Assembly: GCF_000015965.1 (NCBI RefSeq) | Contig: NC_009091.1 | Span: 1,116,001-1,180,000, forward strand | Direction: 5' to 3' | DNA from: Prochlorococcus marinus str. MIT 9301 | GTDB lineage: Bacteria; Cyanobacteriota; Cyanobacteriia; PCC-6307; Cyanobiaceae | Length of the DNA: 64,000 bases | In this document: one piece after another, positions 53,262 to 63,884 of the stretch | Layout: every line of letters begins with the position of its first letter | Position numbering within the stretch: position 1 is the first letter of the stretch | Program-made: the position numbers and the translations under genes | Notes under the pieces: model-generated | The model's input: only the letters and a program-made list of their open reading frames with translations | Told to the model about the DNA's origin: nothing | The model's database searches: none

Positions 53262-53906
53262 ATGAAACAATTAAATACTGAAGCTTTAGAATCTATATTT
53301 GAAAATTATGATTATATATTCTGGGATTATGATGATACCTTATCTCCTACGGTGGAAAAGAAAGGCATTGCATATATAAAAATATTTAAAGAATATCCTC
53401 AAGAATTAAAGGATTTCATCTTAGATCATCATAAAAAATTTCCAGGCGTAAGTAGACAAGTTAAGCTGCCAATTTATTTAAAAGAAAGTCTTAAATACAA
53501 AGATGTAAACTTTGACTCAAAATTAATAGATCTAAAAAGAAAGTTTTCTATAGAATGCATTCAGATTTTAAGTGTAATCCCAATTTTTAAAAATATAGAA
53601 AAATTCTTGAAGAACAGTAAAAAACATAATTTTATTATTACAAATATGCCTCAGGAAGAAATAAATGAAACTATAAAATCAAAATTATTAAAAGAATTTT
53701 TTATTCAGATTATTGGAGATGCCATTGATAAGGCTGATATTCTCAAAGAAAAACTGAGTAACATTAAAGATAAAGAAAGGTGCGTTTTTGTAGGAGATAG
53801 TAAAACAGATTATGAAGCAGCTTATAATTGTAATATAGATTTTATTTTAAAAAGTTCTTCACTGAATAAATCTCTTCAATTAATACCTAGAATTAAAATT
53901 ATTTAA
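53262..53906 (+). CDS. HAD-superfamily phosphatase
   Basis: 214 aa from the ATG at 53262; a TTG six bases earlier is possible. HAD motifs: DYDDT (Asp22, Asp24, Thr26), NM after a hydrophobic strand (FIITNMPQEE), a Lys region and VFVGDSKTDYEAAY. The cap is of the C1 helical type. It is likely a phosphatase acting on a sugar phosphate, by analogy with KdsC in its setting. Ten bases upstream of the aldolase gene. Confidence 0.82.
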   Translation: MKQLNTEALESIFENYDYIFWDYDDTLSPTVEKKGIAYIKIFKEYPQELKDFILDHHKKFPGVSRQVKLPIYLKESLKYKDVNFDSKLIDLKRKFSIECIQILSVIPIFKNIEKFLKNSKKHNFIITNMPQEEINETIKSKLLKEFFIQIIGDAIDKADILKEKLSNIKDKERCVFVGDSKTDYEAAYNCNIDFILKSSSLNKSLQLIPRIKII

Positions 53907-53915
53907 TTAATAAAT

Positions 53916-54707
53916 ATGATCTCTTCCAAAATTATTAATAAAGAGCTTAATCAAATAAGAAAAAAATTAAATATTGGGATACCAAGTATTGGAAGTTGGT
54001 TGCAATTAAATAATACGTCAGTTGGAGCTATCATTGCCAAAAATAATTTTGACTGGCTTACTCTTGATTTAGAACATGGAGATATTGACGAAGCGGATAT
54101 ACCTCTAATGGTAAATTCGATTCAGTATTATTGTCCATTAGTTTTTGCACGAATAAGATCACCACAAACAACATATTGTTCGAGAGCATTAGATCTAGGA
54201 GTTAACGGAATAATAATTCCAAAAATTGAAAGCTTTGAGCAAATAAACAATTTAAGAGAAAGTATTTATTATCCCCCTTATGGTTGTAGAGGAGTTGGCT
54301 ATGCAAATACAAACTTATTTGGAGAAAATCTGCTGGACCACTTAAACGAACTAAATGAGCCATTCATAGTTCCCATGATAGAGACAAAAAAAGGAGTTGA
54401 GGAACTTGAAAGCATATTACGATGTAAAGGCATAGATGCTATTCTAATTGGACCATACGATCTAAGCGCTTCTTATGGAGTACCTGGCGAAATTCAATCA
54501 GAAATAGTTAAAGAAAAAGTTGATTATATTTTAAAAACTTGCAAAAAATTTGCTGTTCCTGCTGGCTTACACATAGTTGAACCTGATGAGAAAAGTTTGA
54601 ACGAAGCAATAAAAAAAGGATTCACATTTTTACCATATAGTATCGATACAGTATTCTTAAGGAAAGCTTCTAAAAAGCCTAATAATATCCATTATCAAAA
54701 AAAATGA
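53916..54707 (+). CDS. HpcH/HpaI class II pyruvate aldolase
   Basis: 263 aa TIM barrel of the HpcH/HpaI family. Visible catalytic elements: DLEHGDID (His54), FARIRSP (Arg79), metal ligands Glu156 in PMIETKKG and Asp182 in IGPYDLSAS, and GCRGVGYAN. These enzymes join pyruvate to an aldehyde, or cleave 2-keto-3-deoxy acids. Its stop overlaps the kdsB-like start by four bases, so the two are coupled. A role in making a 2-keto-3-deoxy sugar acid for surface glycan is inferred from context. Confidence 0.9.
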   Translation: MISSKIINKELNQIRKKLNIGIPSIGSWLQLNNTSVGAIIAKNNFDWLTLDLEHGDIDEADIPLMVNSIQYYCPLVFARIRSPQTTYCSRALDLGVNGIIIPKIESFEQINNLRESIYYPPYGCRGVGYANTNLFGENLLDHLNELNEPFIVPMIETKKGVEELESILRCKGIDAILIGPYDLSASYGVPGEIQSEIVKEKVDYILKTCKKFAVPAGLHIVEPDEKSLNEAIKKGFTFLPYSIDTVFLRKASKKPNNIHYQKK

Positions 54708-55447
54708 AAACTATAGGATTAATCCCTGCAAGAATGGGAAGTTCGAGATTACAAGGGAAACCTTTAAAAAAGATAAAAGGTAAAGAGATGCTCTTAAGAG
54801 TATATGAAAATGCATTAAATGCAAAATTAATAGATACTCTTTATATAGCTACTTGTGATGAAGAAATAAGAAGAACAATGGATGCATACGGATGCAAGGT
54901 AGTCATGACTGGTTCACACCACACAAGATGTACTTCTAGATGTGCAGAAGCATTGATAAAAATAGAAAAAACATGTAATTATACTTTCGATAATATTGTT
55001 ATGATTCAGGGAGATGAACCTTTGGTAAAGGGTGCTGAAATCGATGAAGCAGTTAAATTAATTATTGACAACAAGGATATTAGAATTGCAAATCTTATAG
55101 GAAAAATTGAAAGCTATGAAGAATTTACCGATAGGAACACTATAAAAGTGGTTCTAACAAAAAATGACGAAATACTTTATTTTTCTAGAGGAAATATTCC
55201 ATTCTCTGAGAAAGATAATTTTAAATATGCTTTTAAACAGGTATGTATCATTCCAATGAAAAGAGATATACTTGAAATTTTTACAAAATTTGAAGAGACT
55301 ACTTTAGAGAAAATTGAATCAATAGATATGCTTAGATTAATTGAAAATAAAATTCCTATAAAAGCAAAATTAATCAAATATAAAACTCAAGCAGTAGATG
55401 TTCCTTCTGATATTAAGAAAGTTGAGAAAATACTCACAAATGAATAA
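54704..55447 (+). CDS. kdsB: KdsB-like CMP-sugar acid cytidylyltransferase, diverged
   Basis: 247 aa. GLIPARMGSSRLQGKPLKKI and IQGDEPLV (102-108) are the KdsB cores for CTP and metal. At residues 69-82, where KdsB normally reads TS..H.SGTDR.AE, this protein has TGSHHTRCTSRCAE, so the Asp-Arg pair is changed. It probably activates a 3-deoxy-ulosonate with CTP, perhaps not Kdo itself. Confidence 0.85.
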   Translation: MKTIGLIPARMGSSRLQGKPLKKIKGKEMLLRVYENALNAKLIDTLYIATCDEEIRRTMDAYGCKVVMTGSHHTRCTSRCAEALIKIEKTCNYTFDNIVMIQGDEPLVKGAEIDEAVKLIIDNKDIRIANLIGKIESYEEFTDRNTIKVVLTKNDEILYFSRGNIPFSEKDNFKYAFKQVCIIPMKRDILEIFTKFEETTLEKIESIDMLRLIENKIPIKAKLIKYKTQAVDVPSDIKKVEKILTNE

Positions 55448-56933
55448 AACTCTAAAAGAATACAATAAAAAGCTTAGTGAATTATCCTTAATATTTGGTC
55501 CAAAATCATTATTTTCTCCAACTTTATGCAGGATAGAAGGTCAAACAAATTTATTTAGAAATATATTTATAAATAATAAAAAAAATAAAAATCAAAATTT
55601 TATAAGTTTAAGTTTAAATTTTTTAAAAAATTTTAGCTTTGTTTTAAAACCAATAAGAGATTTTGTATTCATGTTAAATTCTGAAAAAAAAGTTTTTCCT
55701 AAAAATATAAATAGACTATTTATAACCTATGGAGATTATAGAAACATCTCATATAAAAAAAACTGGGAAGAAGAAATTTTTAGGGGTATCAAACCAAGTA
55801 AAAAAAATAAAATCTTAGTTATTTCTCTTGGCAAATCAATAAAGGATGTCGTTAAAAATATAAACTATATAAAAAATTGTAATCAGAAGAAAGATATCTA
55901 CTCAATTTATTCAATGATTGAATTAAAAGATATTTTAAATGCTTTTTTGAAGAGTAATTTTTACTTTTTTACGTATTTATTTGGACTATCATCAAGAAAA
56001 ATATTTATTAATAGAAAAAATATAAAATCTTTTGTAATAAAAAGTTTGATTAATGATTATGCAAGAGGTTTTTTGTATAGTAATTGTCTTTTCTCAAATA
56101 TTTGGTCTAATACATTAAAAAATAATCCAAAAAAAATTATTTTCCCTTGGGAATCACATTGTTGGGAAAGGTTACTAATGCATCAAGTAAACAAGGATAA
56201 AATGTTCCAAACTATTTCCACTATAGGTTATCAACATACTGGATTTTCATACGGACTTCTTCAACATTTCGCAACCAAATCTGATGAGAAAAATTTTATT
56301 AATCCTCAAATAATCTTCTCATGCGGTGAAATTCAAAAAGAAAAATTAGATCAAATTGAAGGATTGTCAAAAGTAAGAAAATTTACAGTTGGGTCCCTTC
56401 GATGTAAATCAAATCCAGATATTAAAACTCTTTATTCCAAATTGAATAAAAAAATAAAGAATATATCTGTTGCACTAGGTTATAATCAGAAAAATTACCA
56501 AACAATTATTGACGAGCTAAATAAAGTAAATAAAAAAATTAATATATACATTTTTCTTCACCCGTTAAACTATAAATTCAATCCCACTAAATATCTTGAT
56601 AATAATATCATTTTAAAATATAAAAGAAATAATAAATTAATAAAAGATTCGGACTTATTAATTGTTGATGACAACTCAATGATGATAGAGGGATGGACAT
56701 TAGGAGTTCCCACAATAATTTATGAAACAGACTCTTATAAATTAACTAAAAGAGACTGGAAAAGTCCAATCTTGCATATCACAAAAAAAAATATTAATGA
56801 ACTAGATAAGAAAAATTTTAGAGCTAAACTTGATAGTTCCATCAAGATATATTTAAAGTCAAAGTATTATGAAAAATATTTCAAGGAAATAAATTTTTCT
56901 AAATTTGAAAATTTTTTATCACAAGTAAATTAG
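55440..56933 (+). CDS. Surface carbohydrate biosynthesis protein (TIGR04326-like), putative glycosyltransferase
   Basis: 497 aa from the ATG at 55440, which overlaps the KdsB-like gene by eight bases; longer starts run through that gene. Lys/Asn-rich N-terminal half, then IFPWESHCWERLLMHQ, the QHTGFSYGLLQHFATKS stretch, IFLHPLNYKF and a C-terminal DDNSMMIEGWTLGVPTIIYE. The last part resembles the nucleotide-sugar end of GT-B enzymes such as the CDP-glycerol or sialyl-type transferases. It is a candidate transferase for the CMP-sugar made next door. Ends four bases into the convergent ptmE. Confidence 0.65.
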   Translation: MNKTLKEYNKKLSELSLIFGPKSLFSPTLCRIEGQTNLFRNIFINNKKNKNQNFISLSLNFLKNFSFVLKPIRDFVFMLNSEKKVFPKNINRLFITYGDYRNISYKKNWEEEIFRGIKPSKKNKILVISLGKSIKDVVKNINYIKNCNQKKDIYSIYSMIELKDILNAFLKSNFYFFTYLFGLSSRKIFINRKNIKSFVIKSLINDYARGFLYSNCLFSNIWSNTLKNNPKKIIFPWESHCWERLLMHQVNKDKMFQTISTIGYQHTGFSYGLLQHFATKSDEKNFINPQIIFSCGEIQKEKLDQIEGLSKVRKFTVGSLRCKSNPDIKTLYSKLNKKIKNISVALGYNQKNYQTIIDELNKVNKKINIYIFLHPLNYKFNPTKYLDNNIILKYKRNNKLIKDSDLLIVDDNSMMIEGWTLGVPTIIYETDSYKLTKRDWKSPILHITKKNINELDKKNFRAKLDSSIKIYLKSKYYEKYFKEINFSKFENFLSQVN

Positions 56934-58000
56934 ATTTCATTAGCTTTACTTGAATTTCTAATCCTTTTATAATCTTCAGGTCTTCCTACATCCGTCCATT
57001 CTTCATGCAAAGCAAAAACTTTTAAAATTTTTTTCTTATTTATACCTAGTTCAAATAATTGATTCATATCAATATGTTTCCCCTTTTCTATTAAACCAAT
57101 CAAATTTTTTGAAACAACATAAACTCCAGCATTAATTGTAGATTTATATATTGGTTTTTCAGAAATTCCAATAAAATTATCATTACTAGTTTCAATTACT
57201 CCAAATGGATTTTGCAATCCAAATTCTTTAACAGCAATTACTCCATCAGCTTTTGTATATTTGGCAAAATTCAACATATTACTATATTCTAATGATGTTA
57301 CAACATCACCATTGGTAATAAAAACATAATCAGTAAGCAAATCTTTTTTTAAATATGCTAATGAACCTGCAGTCCCCAGGGGTTTTTCTTCTTGAATATA
57401 GCTTATATTAATCCCAAATTTATCCCCATTACCAAAATATTCCTTTATTACCTCTCCCAAATAACCAATTGACAGGACAAAATTTCTGAAGCCAAACTCC
57501 TTTGCATTATTAATTATTAATTCGATCATTGGCTTACCACTTATATGCAACATTGGTTTAGGAAGATTTTTAGTTAAAGGTCTCATTCTTAAACCTTTAC
57601 CTCCAGCTAATATAAAAAAGGTTTCATTAATAAAACTCTCTTCTATTAAATTATTAGAAACAAAGATGCCCTTAAATTTATTATTTTCATCAACTAAAGG
57701 TATATGAAAAATATGATTCTTTATCATTAATCTATAAATTTTTTCTTCTGATAAAAATTCATGAACTTTAATAGGTTGATAGTTTATTACATCAGATAAT
57801 TTACTACTTTTTGAAACGCCATTTAAAATTCCTCTTCTTAAATCACTATCAGTTATTATTCCTTCCAAATAATTTTGCTCGTTAAAAACTAGACAAATTT
57901 GGAAGCCACCTTTATTTATCTTTTGAATAGCTTCCCCTACATTATCCTTAATGTTTACAGAAAAATCTCTACAGTTTTTAATAAAAAAATTCCTTTTCAT
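56930..58000 (-). CDS. ptmE: CBS-domain sugar-1-phosphate nucleotidyltransferase, PtmE-like
   Basis: 356 aa: two CBS repeats (residues ~15-120: GGFQICLVFNEQNYLEGIIT, IFHIPLVDENNKFKGIFVS) and a nucleotidyltransferase domain with FILAGGKGLRMRPLTKNLPK, FITNGDVVTS and EWTDVGRPEDY. This fusion matches PtmE, the GlcN-1-P guanylyltransferase that opens the GDP route to legionaminic acid. It is the last gene of the nonulosonic operon. Confidence 0.87.
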   Translation of the reverse strand: MKRNFFIKNCRDFSVNIKDNVGEAIQKINKGGFQICLVFNEQNYLEGIITDSDLRRGILNGVSKSSKLSDVINYQPIKVHEFLSEEKIYRLMIKNHIFHIPLVDENNKFKGIFVSNNLIEESFINETFFILAGGKGLRMRPLTKNLPKPMLHISGKPMIELIINNAKEFGFRNFVLSIGYLGEVIKEYFGNGDKFGINISYIQEEKPLGTAGSLAYLKKDLLTDYVFITNGDVVTSLEYSNMLNFAKYTKADGVIAVKEFGLQNPFGVIETSNDNFIGISEKPIYKSTINAGVYVVSKNLIGLIEKGKHIDMNQLFELGINKKKILKVFALHEEWTDVGRPEDYKRIRNSSKANEI

Positions 58001-58002
58001 AC

Positions 58003-58221
58003 TTACAATAAATTAAATTTATAGTCTTTAAAGATTTTTCTAAACTTTTTTATACTTGAATCAATTATATGTATAGTTTTTATATAAGTACAAACTTTAT
58101 ATTTTAAAAAAGAAACTATTTTAAAAAAACTTTTTTTTTCTAAAATATTGTAAGATTGATTATTTTTAAATAAATTTTTATAATTTTTATTGAGTAAATT
58201 TTTTATCATATTAATTTGCAA
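58003..58221 (-). CDS. Doubtful 72-aa ORF in the nonulosonic operon
   Basis: Very Lys/Asn/Ile/Phe-rich frame between legG and ptmE with two-base gaps on both sides. It starts at TTG; an ATG is codon 5. No motif. The exact tiling favours expression as part of the operon, but the low complexity leaves a chance frame possible. Confidence 0.35.
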   Translation of the reverse strand: MQINMIKNLLNKNYKNLFKNNQSYNILEKKSFFKIVSFLKYKVCTYIKTIHIIDSSIKKFRKIFKDYKFNLL

Positions 58222-58223
58222 AC

Positions 58224-59336
58224 TTAGTTAATTATTTCTTTAAGTATCTTAATTATTTCATAACTTGGTAATTTTCTTTCTATTTGTAAATTCCTTGGTT
58301 GAGATAGAGGAGTTTTCCCTTCCTTTATTTTTTTAAGTGATTCATACATTTCTTTATATGATCCATCTAGATTGGACACCTTACCAAAAGTTGATCTTCC
58401 TTTTTGCCTTTCACCAATATTTAAGGAAGGTATTCCTATCAATGGTGCCTCAATAATTCCACTAGAGGAATTTCCAATTACTACATCAAATAACTTTAAA
58501 GATGAAATATATAAATCAGAGCCAAGAGATTTATAAAGGAAACATCTATCACTATTACGCTCTGAAAATCTAATTAAAGCAGTTTTAATTATTTCCCCAC
58601 CTTCATCTATATTTGGGTATGTAATAAGTACATTTGCCTCTAATTCAAGAATCACTCTAAATATATTTTTTAACTTCTCAAGACCATAATCATAAATATA
58701 ACTTTCTGGATGGAATGTCAGAATTATATTAAATTTATCAAATTTGAAATTAAGTTTTTTTTCGAATTGACTATGAGTAATTGATTCATGGCAATTTAAT
58801 AAATCTTTGATCATAGGCCCTACGGTAAATATATTTTTCTTATTTACGCCCATATTTAGTAAATTCTTTGTGTGTTTTTCTAAACTAGTAAAGTGAAGAT
58901 TGGCTAATTGACTAATTGCATTCCTAAACCCATTATCCAGAGAGCCAAAAGTAACTTCTCCACCATGCAAATGTATAATTTTTATTTTCTTTAAAAATGC
59001 CGAATAAACAGCGCCTAATGCCTCATACCTATCACCCAAGACTATTAAAAAATCAGGATTGAAATCCTCAAAAAACTTAGATATTTTTGTTATTAACTCA
59101 GCTGTGATTTCAGCAGCATTTTTATCTCCCTTAATTGATAGGTGAATAAATTCAAGATTAGAGAATCCATCTTTTTTAATCTGGTCACATGTATAACCAT
59201 ACTCATCCTCTAAATGTGTTCCTGTAACAATGATTATAAGTTGAAATAGTTTTTCAGAATCTAATAATTTGCATAGATTCCTTAATAAACCATATTCAGC
59301 CCTCGTAGAAGTAAAAACAGCTATTTTAGATTTCAT
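58224..59336 (-). CDS. legG: Hydrolysing UDP/GDP-GlcNAc 2-epimerase family protein (LegG/NeuC)
   Basis: 370 aa GT-B fold. IAVFTSTRAEYGLLRNLCKL, GTHLEDEYGYT, VLGDRYEALGAVYSA, HLHGGEVTFGSLDNGFRNAI and VIGNSSSGIIEAPLIGIPSL are the NeuC/LegG blocks. It removes the nucleotide and epimerises C2 to give a manno-configured sugar for the synthase. Start overlaps the legI end by eleven bases. Confidence 0.9.
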   Translation of the reverse strand: MKSKIAVFTSTRAEYGLLRNLCKLLDSEKLFQLIIIVTGTHLEDEYGYTCDQIKKDGFSNLEFIHLSIKGDKNAAEITAELITKISKFFEDFNPDFLIVLGDRYEALGAVYSAFLKKIKIIHLHGGEVTFGSLDNGFRNAISQLANLHFTSLEKHTKNLLNMGVNKKNIFTVGPMIKDLLNCHESITHSQFEKKLNFKFDKFNIILTFHPESYIYDYGLEKLKNIFRVILELEANVLITYPNIDEGGEIIKTALIRFSERNSDRCFLYKSLGSDLYISSLKLFDVVIGNSSSGIIEAPLIGIPSLNIGERQKGRSTFGKVSNLDGSYKEMYESLKKIKEGKTPLSQPRNLQIERKLPSYEIIKILKEIIN

Positions 59337-60351
59337 TTAAATTAAGATCTAATATTAGATCTCCATCTTTATAATCCTTGGATGCTACTGCTCCAATAAC
59401 CTTATCTATTTCCATTGGACTTAAACCATTACCTGGTCTTTGAAAGATTATATTTTTTTTTGTGATTAAAGAACCTTTTTGAATATTATTAAAGGCTCTT
59501 ATTGATCTCCTAGCTATTAATTTATTTTCAATTTCACTTTCTTTTGTTTCTTTTCTACTGTTACCTAACATCACCTCCGTTGCTCTTATATCACTAACCA
59601 TTTTTGCAAATAATTTAGGAGTAATACTCGCTTTATGGTCGGGACCAGGCAGGTCCTTATCAAGAGTTAAATGTTTCTCTATTGCAGATGCTCCTAGTGC
59701 AATTGAAATAATCGGCGCAATTATATTTTCACTATGATCCGAATAGCCTGTTTTACAACCAAAGCAATTTTGCAAAGTACTCAATACTTTTAAATTTAAG
59801 TCTTTATTTGGAGCAGGATAACTACTTACACAATGCATTATTGTTATTCTTTCTAGGGTCTCTTTAAATCTTAAAAGAGATAAAGCTTCCTCAATATCCC
59901 CTAAACTAGACATACCGGTAGATAATAAAACATTAATGTTTCCTTCTGAGATGAATTTACCTATTTCACTAATGAGAGCATAATTAGTAATTTCTCCAGA
60001 AGGTATTTTTATTGAAAGCATTCCTAAATCTAAAAGGAAATGTAATTCATCAACCCCAAAAGGAGATGACATAAACTCTATTCCAATTTCATTACAAAAA
60101 CTAAAAATTCTTTTTGTATCCTTATCCGTAAGTTCTAAAGATTTAAGCATATCTATTTGACTTTTATAAGAATTCGATTTTTTTTGATATTGAGCTAGAG
60201 GGGCAGAAAAACTAGCGAGGGATTCACTTTTAAAAGTCTGAAACTTAATAGAATCAGCTCCAGACAATTTAGCTTCTTCAACTAACTTTAAAGCTAAATC
60301 TAAAGATCCATTATGATTTACTCCCGCTTCAGCTATTACTTTAGTGGCCAT
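59326..60351 (-). CDS. legI: N-acetylneuraminate/legionaminate synthase (LegI/NeuB)
   Basis: 341 aa: VIAEAGVNHNGSLDLALKLV, the DSIKFQTFKSE motif, EFMSSPFGVDE, GYSDHSE and a C-terminal SAF antifreeze-like domain with RRSIRAFNNIQKGSLITKKN. It condenses PEP with the amino sugar to form the nine-carbon acid. Overlaps both neighbours. Confidence 0.94.
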   Translation of the reverse strand: MATKVIAEAGVNHNGSLDLALKLVEEAKLSGADSIKFQTFKSESLASFSAPLAQYQKKSNSYKSQIDMLKSLELTDKDTKRIFSFCNEIGIEFMSSPFGVDELHFLLDLGMLSIKIPSGEITNYALISEIGKFISEGNINVLLSTGMSSLGDIEEALSLLRFKETLERITIMHCVSSYPAPNKDLNLKVLSTLQNCFGCKTGYSDHSENIIAPIISIALGASAIEKHLTLDKDLPGPDHKASITPKLFAKMVSDIRATEVMLGNSRKETKESEIENKLIARRSIRAFNNIQKGSLITKKNIIFQRPGNGLSPMEIDKVIGAVASKDYKDGDLILDLNLNEI

Positions 60352-60929
60352 CCCATTACTCTCTTACCGGCACTTATTATTGTACCCCTCGGAAGAGATA
60401 AACCTTCCCTTATCATAACTTTACTTCCTATAAAACTTTCACGGCCAATTTTAACACCTCCATTAACAGTAACCGAAGTAGAAATATGAGAAAAGTCTCC
60501 TATATGAGTATCATGTTCTATCAGGCTTTGAGTATTAATTATACAATGCTTTCCAATATTACAATTTGCATTAACTATAGCAAAATGTCCTATTGTACAT
60601 CCTTCCTCAATTCTGGAGTATTTGCTAACGTATGAATTAGGAGAAATAATTGTAGGCAATTTGTAACCTAATAACTTTAAATCATTAATTTTTTTTACTC
60701 TCATTCGAGCAGACCCTATTTCACCAATTGCTAAAACTATATATTTATATTCTTTAGAAATTCTTTGCAAGTCTTTATCAGTCCATTTTACTTTGATATC
60801 TAATATTGATTGACCTAGTTCAGATTCAAGACCAACAATTCCAGCTATTTCCCACATTTCTGTACTTAAAATTAAATCTATCATTGATTTTGAATGACCT
60901 CCTGCACCAACTAGAACTACTTTTTTCAT
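60336..60929 (-). CDS. PglD/NeuD-like hexapeptide acyltransferase
   Basis: 197 aa: Rossmann-like start VVLVGAGGHSKSMIDLILST, then a left-handed helix with NTQSLIEHDTHIGDFSHIST (catalytic His) and GKRVMGWPLK end. In this operon it is the best candidate for the N-acetylation step (LegH role); O-acetylation as in NeuD is the alternative. Confidence 0.88.
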   Translation of the reverse strand: MKKVVLVGAGGHSKSMIDLILSTEMWEIAGIVGLESELGQSILDIKVKWTDKDLQRISKEYKYIVLAIGEIGSARMRVKKINDLKLLGYKLPTIISPNSYVSKYSRIEEGCTIGHFAIVNANCNIGKHCIINTQSLIEHDTHIGDFSHISTSVTVNGGVKIGRESFIGSKVMIREGLSLPRGTIISAGKRVMGWPLK

Positions 60930-62125
60930 TAAATAACAATTTGAGGACTACTTGGCAAAGAGATAATTAATTTCGATAAAGATTCAGAGATATCTAAATT
61001 AGATCTGAAACATTTATTGTACATTTCTGTTTTATGAATTAATTGCCAACATGGTCTTAATTGGATCCCTCTGTCCTTAGCTAAATTAATAATTGTATTA
61101 CGAATAAAGGAGATATCATTCAAATCCTTATCCAAAATCAAAGTTACAAGCCAATAGTTTGAAAATTCTGAAGATTTTTCTTCTTGAAGGACATTGATAT
61201 TTTTAATAGATTTAAAACTCTCAATATAATTTTTAGCTAACAATCTCTTAAGCTTTAATCTTTCATTAAAAACCTCCAACTGAGCAAAACCTAGTGCAGC
61301 ATTAATATTTGGCATTCTATCGTTCCAAGCTATTTGATCATGAATTATATTCCCATTATCATCTTCCATTTTTGCGGTTGTGGACAAGTGTTTTGCCTTT
61401 TTAGCTAAAATATTATCATTAGTAACTATGACTCCTCCTCCTCCAGTAGTAACTATTTTATTTCCATTAAAACTGTATACGCCTAAAGTCCCAAATGTCC
61501 CGCAATCTTTACCTTTAACTTTACTTCCTAGAGCTTCTGCTGCATCCTCAATAACGGGCAAATCCCATTCATCTGCTACTTTAATAAGTTGGTTTATTTT
61601 TGCGGGAATTCCAAAAACATGGACAACTATAATTGCCGATATTTTTTTTCCTGAAATTTTATTAAAAACAACTCCATTTCTCTTTTCTGCTACATTTTTT
61701 AAATGTTTAGAAAGTATTTCCGGATTTAAACCTAGAGTATCTTTCTCAATATCTACAAAATGTGGAGTTGCATTTAAATGAGCAATCGCATTAGCAGTTG
61801 CTATAAATGTGAGTGGCGGCATAATTACCTCATCTCCTTTATTTACTCCTACTAAGGAAAGAGCTAATCTTAATCCAACAGTTCCATTTGTAATCGCAAT
61901 AGCATTTTGTGAAGAAGTGATTTTTTTTATCTTATTTTCAAACTTTGTCACCCAATCACCTGATGTACTAACCCAAGCTTTATCAATACAATCTTTTACG
62001 TAATCTAATGCTTTATTGTCCTTAAAATATGGCTCATGCAACAAAATATCGTTGCTTTGATTTGGTTTTCTTACTACATTTTCTATTGCATCTACAATCT
62101 CATTGCAAAAAATAATATTCGTCAT
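60929..62125 (-). CDS. legC: LegC-like PLP-dependent sugar aminotransferase
   Basis: 398 aa DegT/DnrJ family. MPPLTFIATANAIAHLNATP, VIEDAAEALGSKVKGKDCGT and the PLP Lys in SFNGNKIVTTGGGG. The N-terminal part HEPYFKDNKALDYVKDCIDK is like LegC. It adds the 4-amino group to the keto sugar from LegB. ATGA overlap with legB. Confidence 0.92.
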   Translation of the reverse strand: MTNIIFCNEIVDAIENVVRKPNQSNDILLHEPYFKDNKALDYVKDCIDKAWVSTSGDWVTKFENKIKKITSSQNAIAITNGTVGLRLALSLVGVNKGDEVIMPPLTFIATANAIAHLNATPHFVDIEKDTLGLNPEILSKHLKNVAEKRNGVVFNKISGKKISAIIVVHVFGIPAKINQLIKVADEWDLPVIEDAAEALGSKVKGKDCGTFGTLGVYSFNGNKIVTTGGGGVIVTNDNILAKKAKHLSTTAKMEDDNGNIIHDQIAWNDRMPNINAALGFAQLEVFNERLKLKRLLAKNYIESFKSIKNINVLQEEKSSEFSNYWLVTLILDKDLNDISFIRNTIINLAKDRGIQLRPCWQLIHKTEMYNKCFRSNLDISESLSKLIISLPSSPQIVI

Positions 62126-63129
62126 AAAGAAAAATTATTATCAGAATAAAGGGTGTTATTTCTATTATTTATAAACCAATCAATTGTTTTTTTAATACCT
62201 TCCCTAAATCCATCTAAACCCTTATATTTTGGCTTCCAATTTGAAAGTTCTTGAAGCCTTGAACTATCACCAAAAAGTCTATTTACCTCAGATTTATCTG
62301 GCCTTAATCTTTTTTGGTCACTTATAATTGAAATTTTAGAGTTCATTATTTTTGAAATTTCTTTAACTGTATCAGCTATAGAAATTTCATATTCGCTTGC
62401 TGCATTTAAAATTTGTCCAGTAGTTTTATTACTTATACAAATCTTTTCAAAGGCTTCACAGGTATCACTTACGTAATTGAAATCCCTTGTTGGCATTAAA
62501 GATCCTAATGATATAAATTCCTTTTTTTCAAGGATTTGCAGAATTATAGAAGGTATTACAGCTCGGCAACTCTGTCGAGGACCATATGTATTAAATGGTC
62601 TTAAAATAGATACTGGAGTATTAAAACTTTTAAAGAAACTTAAAGCTAATTGGTCTGCTGCAATCTTTGTTGCGGCATATGGGGATTGAGCTACTAATGG
62701 ATGTTCTTCATTAATTGGAACATATTGAGCAGAACCGTAAGTTTCAGAAGTTGATGTATGGATGAGTTTTTCAATATCAAATTTTCGACAAGCTTCTAAA
62801 ACATTTAAAGTTCCTTTGATATTAGTATCAACATAGCTTGACGGAGAAGTATAACTATATGGAATTCCAATTAATGCTGCCAAATGAAAAACAAAATTAT
62901 TTGATTTTACTGCTTTTGAAATGGAGTCATAATTTCTAATATCCCCAAAAATATAATTTATATTATTTTTTATTTCAGGCGCAACAAAATCCAACCAACC
63001 TTTCAATCCAAATGAATTGTATAGACAGAAAGCATTAACTTCGTACCCTTTTCTAACAAGCATTTCCGTTAAATGAGATCCTATAAAGCCATCTGCACCA
63101 GTAACTAATACTTTTCTATTTTTATTCAT
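62122..63129 (-). CDS. legB: LegB-like NAD-dependent nucleotide-sugar 4,6-dehydratase
   Basis: 335 aa from the ATG at 63129, which shares ATGA with the SDR stop; a GTG at 63138 is less likely. VLVTGADGFIGSHLTEMLVR, YNSFGLKGWLDF, STSETYGSAQYVPINEEHP and the YAATK motif fit LegB. First ring-modifying step of the pathway. Confidence 0.92.
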   Translation of the reverse strand: MNKNRKVLVTGADGFIGSHLTEMLVRKGYEVNAFCLYNSFGLKGWLDFVAPEIKNNINYIFGDIRNYDSISKAVKSNNFVFHLAALIGIPYSYTSPSSYVDTNIKGTLNVLEACRKFDIEKLIHTSTSETYGSAQYVPINEEHPLVAQSPYAATKIAADQLALSFFKSFNTPVSILRPFNTYGPRQSCRAVIPSIILQILEKKEFISLGSLMPTRDFNYVSDTCEAFEKICISNKTTGQILNAASEYEISIADTVKEISKIMNSKISIISDQKRLRPDKSEVNRLFGDSSRLQELSNWKPKYKGLDGFREGIKKTIDWFINNRNNTLYSDNNFSL

Positions 63130-63884
63130 AAAGACCACCCATCATCAACTATTAAATTCTGACCAGATATACCTTTTGCTTGATCTGAGAGAAGAAACAA
63201 AATAGGATATGAAACATTTTTTGGTTTAAGTAGGCCAATATTATTGCAATCTGATTTATAGTTATTCTGAAAAATTTCTAACTGTTTATCCAATACTCCT
63301 CCTGGGCTAACACAGTTAATATTTAAATTAGAATTTTTAAAATATTTAGCAAGCCATTTAGTCATTATTATTATTGAAGATTTAACACAAGAATATTCTA
63401 TGGGAGAACTCATGCTTGTTCCACGATAGTGATGAAACTTAGGTGCAGCTATACCTTGTATTGATGCAATATTTACAAGACTGCCCCCTCCATTTATTTT
63501 TAAATAGTTGCAAATTATTCTTGATAAAATTATAGAAGAGCTTAATTGCATATTTAAATGCAAACTGACTTCATCAAGAGATATCTCATCAAATAATTTA
63601 CCCCAACTTTCTGGTCTAGGATAAGCACAGTGCACGAAACCATTAATTTTTACCCCACAATTTCTGATAAAATCCTTGAACTCTCTTAAACCTTTATTCG
63701 TCGTTAAATCACATTCAAAAAAACTATTTTTATCTGAATTAGAAGTATTTGTTGGGCTTTTTAAATCACAAGAAATTACATCAGCACCAGCCTCTAATAG
63801 TCTTTTGCATAAATCCAAGCCAATTAAACCTTCGCTTCCAGTAACTAAAAAAGTTTTGCCACTTAATGAAAAAAAATCTTCCAT
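63126..63884 (-). CDS. ptmA: PtmA-like short-chain dehydrogenase
   Basis: 252 aa SDR. KTFLVTGSEGLIGLDLCKRL, SLVNIASIQGIAAP, catalytic Tyr/Lys in EYSCVKSSII and a SGQNLIVDDGWSL end. The position between legF and legB matches PtmA of the Campylobacter legionaminic locus, needed for the GDP-sugar precursor. Exact step is inferred. Confidence 0.85.
   Translation of the reverse strand: MEDFFSLSGKTFLVTGSEGLIGLDLCKRLLEAGADVISCDLKSPTNTSNSDKNSFFECDLTTNKGLREFKDFIRNCGVKINGFVHCAYPRPESWGKLFDEISLDEVSLHLNMQLSSSIILSRIICNYLKINGGGSLVNIASIQGIAAPKFHHYRGTSMSSPIEYSCVKSSIIIMTKWLAKYFKNSNLNINCVSPGGVLDKQLEIFQNNYKSDCNNIGLLKPKNVSYPILFLLSDQAKGISGQNLIVDDGWSL

Follow-up and report, generated by a model that had tools for sequence, protein, structure and literature searches.

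How does a marine cyanobacterium supply a substrate to a cytidylyltransferase of the KdsB family when no KdsA synthase is found in its genome? The question is raised by four consecutive genes (positions 53262-56933) in a 64,000-nucleotide stretch of the chromosome of Prochlorococcus marinus str. MIT 9301 (hereinafter the window; positions 1116001-1180000 of the complete single-contig genome of 1,641,879 bp), which code for a HAD phosphatase, a pyruvate aldolase of the HpcH/HpaI family, a KdsB-like enzyme and a putative sugar transferase. To our knowledge, the 2-ulosonic acids activated with cytidine monophosphate (CMP) whose pathways have been worked out, namely 3-deoxy-D-manno-octulosonic acid (Kdo) and the sialic, legionaminic and pseudaminic acids, are all made via phosphoenolpyruvate (PEP)-dependent synthases. 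We consider it likely that in this cluster a pyruvate aldolase provides the route instead, leading to a CMP-activated 2-keto sugar acid (probably 3-deoxy) destined for a surface glycan, and that this sugar is probably not Kdo.

Probable use of a pyruvate aldolase instead of the synthase

A first-pass annotation of the sequence had described the four genes as following each other, with the last three overlapping. All four open reading frames (ORFs) were confirmed on the forward strand, and family matches bear out the first three products. The aldolase and KdsB-like genes share 4 bp; for the transferase, the first ATG of the ORF lies at 55398, but an alternative ATG at 55440, which overlaps the KdsB-like stop by 8 bp, is in our view the likelier start. 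The aldolase is the sole HpcH/HpaI member in the genome (94 bits against PF03328; cut-off 25). Its E156 and D182 align with the metal ligands Glu151/Asp177 of AbHpaI, in keeping with the intact ligands that had been claimed for it, and its H54 and R79 with His45/Arg70 of EcHpaI (residue roles taken from PMC8560999), so that both the metal ligands and the catalytic His/Arg pair are intact. Another HpaI is known to condense pyruvate with D-glyceraldehyde (PMC8560999). The window enzyme shares family, metal ligands and catalytic residues with the class II aldolases HpaI, GarL and YfaU; however, those are linked to catabolic genes, whereas it is linked to a CMP-sugar synthetase within a surface-sugar island, and it scores far under the HpaI and GarL equivalog cut-offs. 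A phage origin was considered and rejected, the only hits in phage records being a pair of weak ones (24% identity).

A canonical kdsA at another place in the genome, which the first-pass annotation had named as the finding that would speak against its proposal, was looked for and not found: the genome encodes a single DAHP_synth_1 protein (356 aa), and TIGR01362 is unmatched. Nor was KdsD found in the genome, where TIGR00393 reaches just the CBS domain of a PtmE-like protein, below cut-off, or WaaA (PF04413 unmatched; E. coli control positive). The earlier suggestion that a pyruvate aldolase fills the synthase slot beside a KdsB-type enzyme thus has genomic support, in a genome without kdsA, kdsD and waaA.

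The remaining steps have candidates as well. The HAD protein, which matches the HAD-IA family, retains the aspartate motif DYD and the motif GDS..D, and its cap motif HH...G.SR..K is common to the HADs adjoining other aldolase-KdsB pairs and pairs of KdsB with an HMGL-like protein (described below); we propose that it dephosphorylates an aldose phosphate or an ulosonate phosphate. A GmhA-like SIS protein is encoded in the same genome 34 kb downstream of the cluster, outside the window (L021:5869-6477). Across our genus sample of 266 Prochlorococcus genomes it is present in eight, comprising 5/6 carriers of the window aldolase type (type A) and 3/260 others (Fisher 3e-8), and its gene directly adjoins a HAD of the window type in three loci (L026, L185, L186) and lies beside one in a further locus (L182). 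Isomerase, aldolase, HAD and cytidylyltransferase together form a set parallel to KdsD-KdsA-KdsC-KdsB, in which only the cytidylyltransferase is detectably homologous: similarity between the window HAD and E. coli KdsC was not detectable, nor was homology between the SIS isomerase and KdsD. Like the CMP-Kdo pathway, the set would combine a sugar-phosphate isomerase, the addition of a C3 unit to give a 2-ulosonate, a HAD phosphatase and activation with cytidine triphosphate (CTP); it differs in having a pyruvate aldolase rather than the PEP-dependent KdsA, a GmhA-like SIS protein rather than KdsD, a HAD-IA protein rather than KdsC, other residues at the putative sugar side of the KdsB relative, and no WaaA.

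In the route that we propose, the isomerase would convert a ketose phosphate to an aldose phosphate, and the aldolase would hold pyruvate on a divalent metal, so that the enolate formed from it attacks the aldose or its phosphate. Removal of the phosphate by the HAD enzyme would come before or after this aldol step; the KdsB-family enzyme would use CTP to form the CMP-ulosonate, pulling the reversible aldol step forward, and the GT-B protein encoded by the fourth gene would transfer the sugar.

Recurrence of the pairing and a second aldolase fold

In the genus sample, a related aldolase occurs in 13 genomes, a KdsB relative in 56 and a true KdsA in 31. KdsB is present in 11 of the 13 aldolase-bearing genomes (Fisher 9e-7), a pairing far beyond chance. 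The two genes lie a few genes apart in varied orders: head to tail in the window and in L023, convergent in L025, L026, L033 and L034, and with other genes between them in L027. Type A aldolases are found in six genomes, none of which has KdsA (0/6).

A second, unrelated fold occupies this slot in about eight further Prochlorococcus genomes. The loci L059-L065 and L076 have the order DRE-TIM HMGL-like (DmpG-like) protein, KdsB, and a HAD that shares the cap motif of the window HAD. The HMGL-like protein (~540 aa, with no assignment for its C-terminal 200 residues), whose characterised relatives are 4-hydroxy-2-oxovalerate aldolases, occurs in 11 Prochlorococcus genomes, with KdsB in 9/11 and KdsA in 0/11. 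That two pyruvate-aldolase folds without relation to each other occupy one slot is our strongest argument for pyruvate aldol addition as the step performed there. Mutual exclusion of the HMGL-like protein and KdsA was considered as a further claim and set aside, since their zero overlap is not significant alone (p 0.37). A further Prochlorococcus island (L183) also holds an HMGL-like-KdsB pair, and a HAD is present in most such islands. One genome (G157) has a type A aldolase gene broken by a stop codon (L024:9115-9867) and an HMGL-KdsB pair on another contig.

Beyond the genus, the sample was the 80 closest aldolase relatives among GTDB representative genomes, 78 of them with an ORF for the aldolase; they span Pseudomonadota, Bacteroidota, Chlorobiota, Chloroflexota, Omnitrophota, Acidobacteriota, an archaeon and others. 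Within 6 kb of the aldolase we recovered KdsB in 60/78, a dehydrogenase resembling 3-phosphoglycerate dehydrogenase (PGDH) in 59/78, a short-chain dehydrogenase/reductase (SDR) in 56/78 and a HAD of the window type in 49/78, counts that are not independent because about two dozen of the loci are from Nitrosomonadaceae. The median aldolase-KdsB gap is 50 bp over 71 measured pairs. On a tree, 13 changes account for the KdsB label where shuffled labels take 32; the window row sits in a group with 33/36 KdsB-linked rows, although its branch is long and its support modest. The recurrence that the first-pass annotation had proposed to look for is seen for the aldolase-KdsB pairing, while the accompanying absence of kdsA is seen in part only: KdsA scores above cut-off in 15 of 30 outside carriers and not in the other 15 (genomes not all complete), so the module occurs in cells both with and without a Kdo synthase. 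In Nitrosomonadaceae carriers kdsA is found in 0/10 genomes tested, which agrees with a report crediting Nitrosomonas europaea with just one of the nine Kdo2-lipid A genes (PMC3087551).

Several side observations accompany these loci. Nitrosomonadaceae show a conserved run of KdsB, aldolase, PGDH-like dehydrogenase, SDR and HAD (L111, L132, L147, L149; L126 in part), followed in several loci by a 6-phosphogluconolactonase-family protein. A PseF-like cytidylyltransferase replaces KdsB beside the aldolase in several of the closest relatives, a pairing seen in Bacteroidota, Chloroflexota and Planctomycetota (L119, L122, L124, L129, L139, L155; L119 also has a putative cyclase). Wide use of the pair in cyanobacteria was rejected: 15 other genomes of a sample of the phylum have an aldolase relative (E 1e-40), and KdsB lies within ~1.5 kb of it in 0/15; in one of them a PseF-like cytidylyltransferase is near the relative.

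Some of the evidence weighs against a synthetic role for the aldolase as we propose it. Characterised members of the HpcH/HpaI family are mostly catabolic. The 15 outside carriers with KdsA have a conventional synthase to hand, and a PGDH-like dehydrogenase and an SDR are added in many of the related loci while the window cluster has neither. Further, in a second arrangement within Prochlorococcus (type B; L028, L030, L031), a single gene run unites kdsA and KdsB with a CBS protein, two SDRs and a distant aldolase (for L028 a profile shows the kdsA; L028 and L030 also have a 503-aa protein), so that the aldolase there shares the role of candidate synthase with KdsA. Given these operons and the outside carriers with kdsA, we rejected the generalization that the aldolase replaces KdsA everywhere. 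Another Prochlorococcus operon (L029) combines kdsA and the CBS protein with SDRs and a distantly related HpcH/HpaI aldolase. Three points go beyond the first-pass annotation: the SIS isomerase partner, the second fold in the aldolase slot, and the occurrence of kdsA beside a distant aldolase in other Prochlorococcus.

The coexistence of kdsA, aldolase and KdsB in type B operons would fit an aldolase that acts on some other metabolite or cleaves a side product, with the cytidylyltransferase receiving its substrate from another synthase, for example a NeuB/LegI-like one encoded only 3 kb from the window cluster. We regard this as unlikely, as the neighboring legionaminate-type genes come with a LegF/PtmB-like cytidylyltransferase of their own, the aldolase-KdsB linkage persists across phyla, and a NeuB relative is near the aldolase in only 2/78 loci. 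The frequency of PGDH-like genes and HADs in related loci raises another alternative: that the donor is hydroxypyruvate, supplied from 3-phosphoglycerate by these two enzymes, and the product a 2-ulosonic acid that is not 3-deoxy. Solved structures matched by the window enzyme do include HpcH/HpaI relatives annotated as hydroxyketoacid aldolase; nevertheless, a PGDH-like gene was not found in the MIT 9301 island stretch searched, and the HMGL-type enzyme of the same slot resembles pyruvate aldolases, and we regard hydroxypyruvate as an improbable donor. Pyruvate addition by the aldolase, with its product passed to the KdsB relative, is thus the reading that we carry forward.

The cytidylyltransferase and the identity of the sugar

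The cytidylyltransferase exceeds the cut-offs of two 'KDO cytidylyltransferase' models (NF009905, 255 bits; NF003952, 238 bits) and of PF02348 (CTP_transf_3, 146 bits), and it falls narrowly under the equivalog TIGR00466 (145 bits, with 155 needed). Its CTP/metal motifs (R10, S13, R15, QGDEP and the final Asp) are retained. However, at three C-terminal positions it has Q, I and M, whereas the Kdo-type enzymes have H, Y and Q (9/9 compared: three known structures, namely E. coli KpsU and chains 4fcu and 3oam, and six kdsA-linked rows). Cytidylyltransferases linked to type A aldolases likewise have Q, I, M, with F at a fourth position in 62/67 rows; the window enzyme is of this type but has M at the fourth position. 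Those linked to the HMGL-like protein have Q, Y, I (16/16), those linked to an AroB-like protein H, I, L (6/6), and those of type B I or V, I, Q; rows of one type are related, and some of the rows repeat the same locus. This residue pattern, which follows the synthase module, suggests several different sugars, and the sugar of the window cluster is probably not Kdo. The AroB-linked enzymes come from six Prochlorococcus loci (L071-L075, L078) with the order SDR, KdsB relative, AroB-like (3-dehydroquinate synthase family) protein, which suggests a cyclised or carbocyclic CMP-activated compound.

A genuine Kdo route would have the isomerase produce D-arabinose 5-phosphate and the aldolase join it, or D-arabinose, to pyruvate on the way to CMP-Kdo, a non-orthologous replacement of KdsA. 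The four-step parallel with the Kdo pathway, the passing of the KDO-cytidylyltransferase subfamily models and the 10/10 Nitrosomonadaceae carriers without kdsA would all be in line with it. Yet Kdo as the product is disfavored because of the residue signature and the carriers (half of those outside the genus) that already possess kdsA; further, the isomerase is GmhA-like and not KdsD-like, and the lipopolysaccharide of two marine Synechococcus strains is without Kdo (PMC4515613). We accordingly think it improbable that the sugar is Kdo, and the Kdo-like branch envisaged by the first-pass annotation is not supported in detail. Cyanobacteria are also reported to have, of the Kdo2-lipid A genes, just lpxA, C, D and B (PMC3087551).

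Proposed transferase, neighboring genes and a possible wider class of pathways

The fourth protein has no family match in the curated libraries, and the curated TIGR04326 model (cut-off 250 bits) gave none at E up to 0.001. TIGR04326 surface carbohydrate proteins follow KdsB in related loci (L084, 549 bits; L088, 302 bits), and an iterated profile of this type, built without the window transferase, finds it at 34.6 bits, whereas its shuffled and reversed versions score no higher than 1.8. Membership was thus rejected on the curated model, and what stands of the TIGR04326-like label given earlier is a distant relationship. The AlphaFold model of the transferase (pLDDT 71, pTM 0.73) matches NeuC-type 2-epimerases, TagF and several glycosyltransferases in the PDB (best E 1e-8, with TM-scores of just 0.3-0.6), from which we predict a GT-B fold with moderate confidence.

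Table 1. Genes of the four-gene cluster, with positions in the window
Predicted product	Position	Strand	Basis
HAD-IA family phosphatase, 214 aa	53262..53906	+	HAD_2 37 bits; ATG at 53262
HpcH/HpaI class II pyruvate aldolase, 263 aa, proposed ulosonate-forming	53916..54707	+	PF03328 94 bits
KdsB-family CTP:ulosonate cytidylyltransferase, 247 aa	54704..55447	+	NF009905, NF003952, PF02348
Predicted GT-B glycosyltransferase, 497 aa, proposed CMP-ulosonate transferase	55440..56933	+	iterated TIGR04326 profile, AlphaFold model

The cluster (Table 1) lies inside a long surface-sugar gene stretch that runs past the window end. Directly following it is a near-complete legionaminic-acid-type set (56930-63884: PtmE-like CBS-nucleotidyltransferase, LegG, LegI, LegH, LegC, LegB and an SDR), whose LegF/PtmB-like cytidylyltransferase is encoded just outside the window (L020:1892-2575); a third CTP_transf_3 cytidylyltransferase of the island is encoded at L020:9413-10108 (231 aa). 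The sialic and legionaminic pathways, of which one is thus encoded next door, also end in a CMP-activated ulosonic acid; however, they use the PEP-dependent NeuB and a NeuA/LegF-type cytidylyltransferase, whereas the window cluster has a pyruvate aldolase and a KdsB-type enzyme.

Taken together, the genomic evidence supports a new variant of CMP-ulosonate synthesis, and the pair of an aldolase and a CMP-activating enzyme looks like a widespread, undescribed way to a surface sugar; in the literature searched, which leaves out most subscription journals, we found no published account of a pyruvate aldolase feeding a CMP-sugar. We see roughly even chances that this variant belongs to a general class of routes to CMP-ulosonates. 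In such a class, the PEP-dependent synthase would give way to pyruvate aldolases that differ in fold (HpcH/HpaI or DmpG-like DRE-TIM) yet are interchangeable, alongside a GmhA-like isomerase, a HAD phosphatase and a product-tuned KdsB relative. With a pyruvate aldolase in the role of the synthase, there would be a second chemistry for making these acids, and KdsB-like genes in the absence of kdsA would be explained, as in this Prochlorococcus and the 10 Nitrosomonadaceae genomes. If the general class is real, previously unknown acidic surface sugars would be present in Prochlorococcus, SAR11, Nitrosomonas and many others. The aldolase route would also point to uncharacterised acidic sugars on the surface of abundant ocean bacteria, in which such glycans are expected to bear on how phages adsorb.

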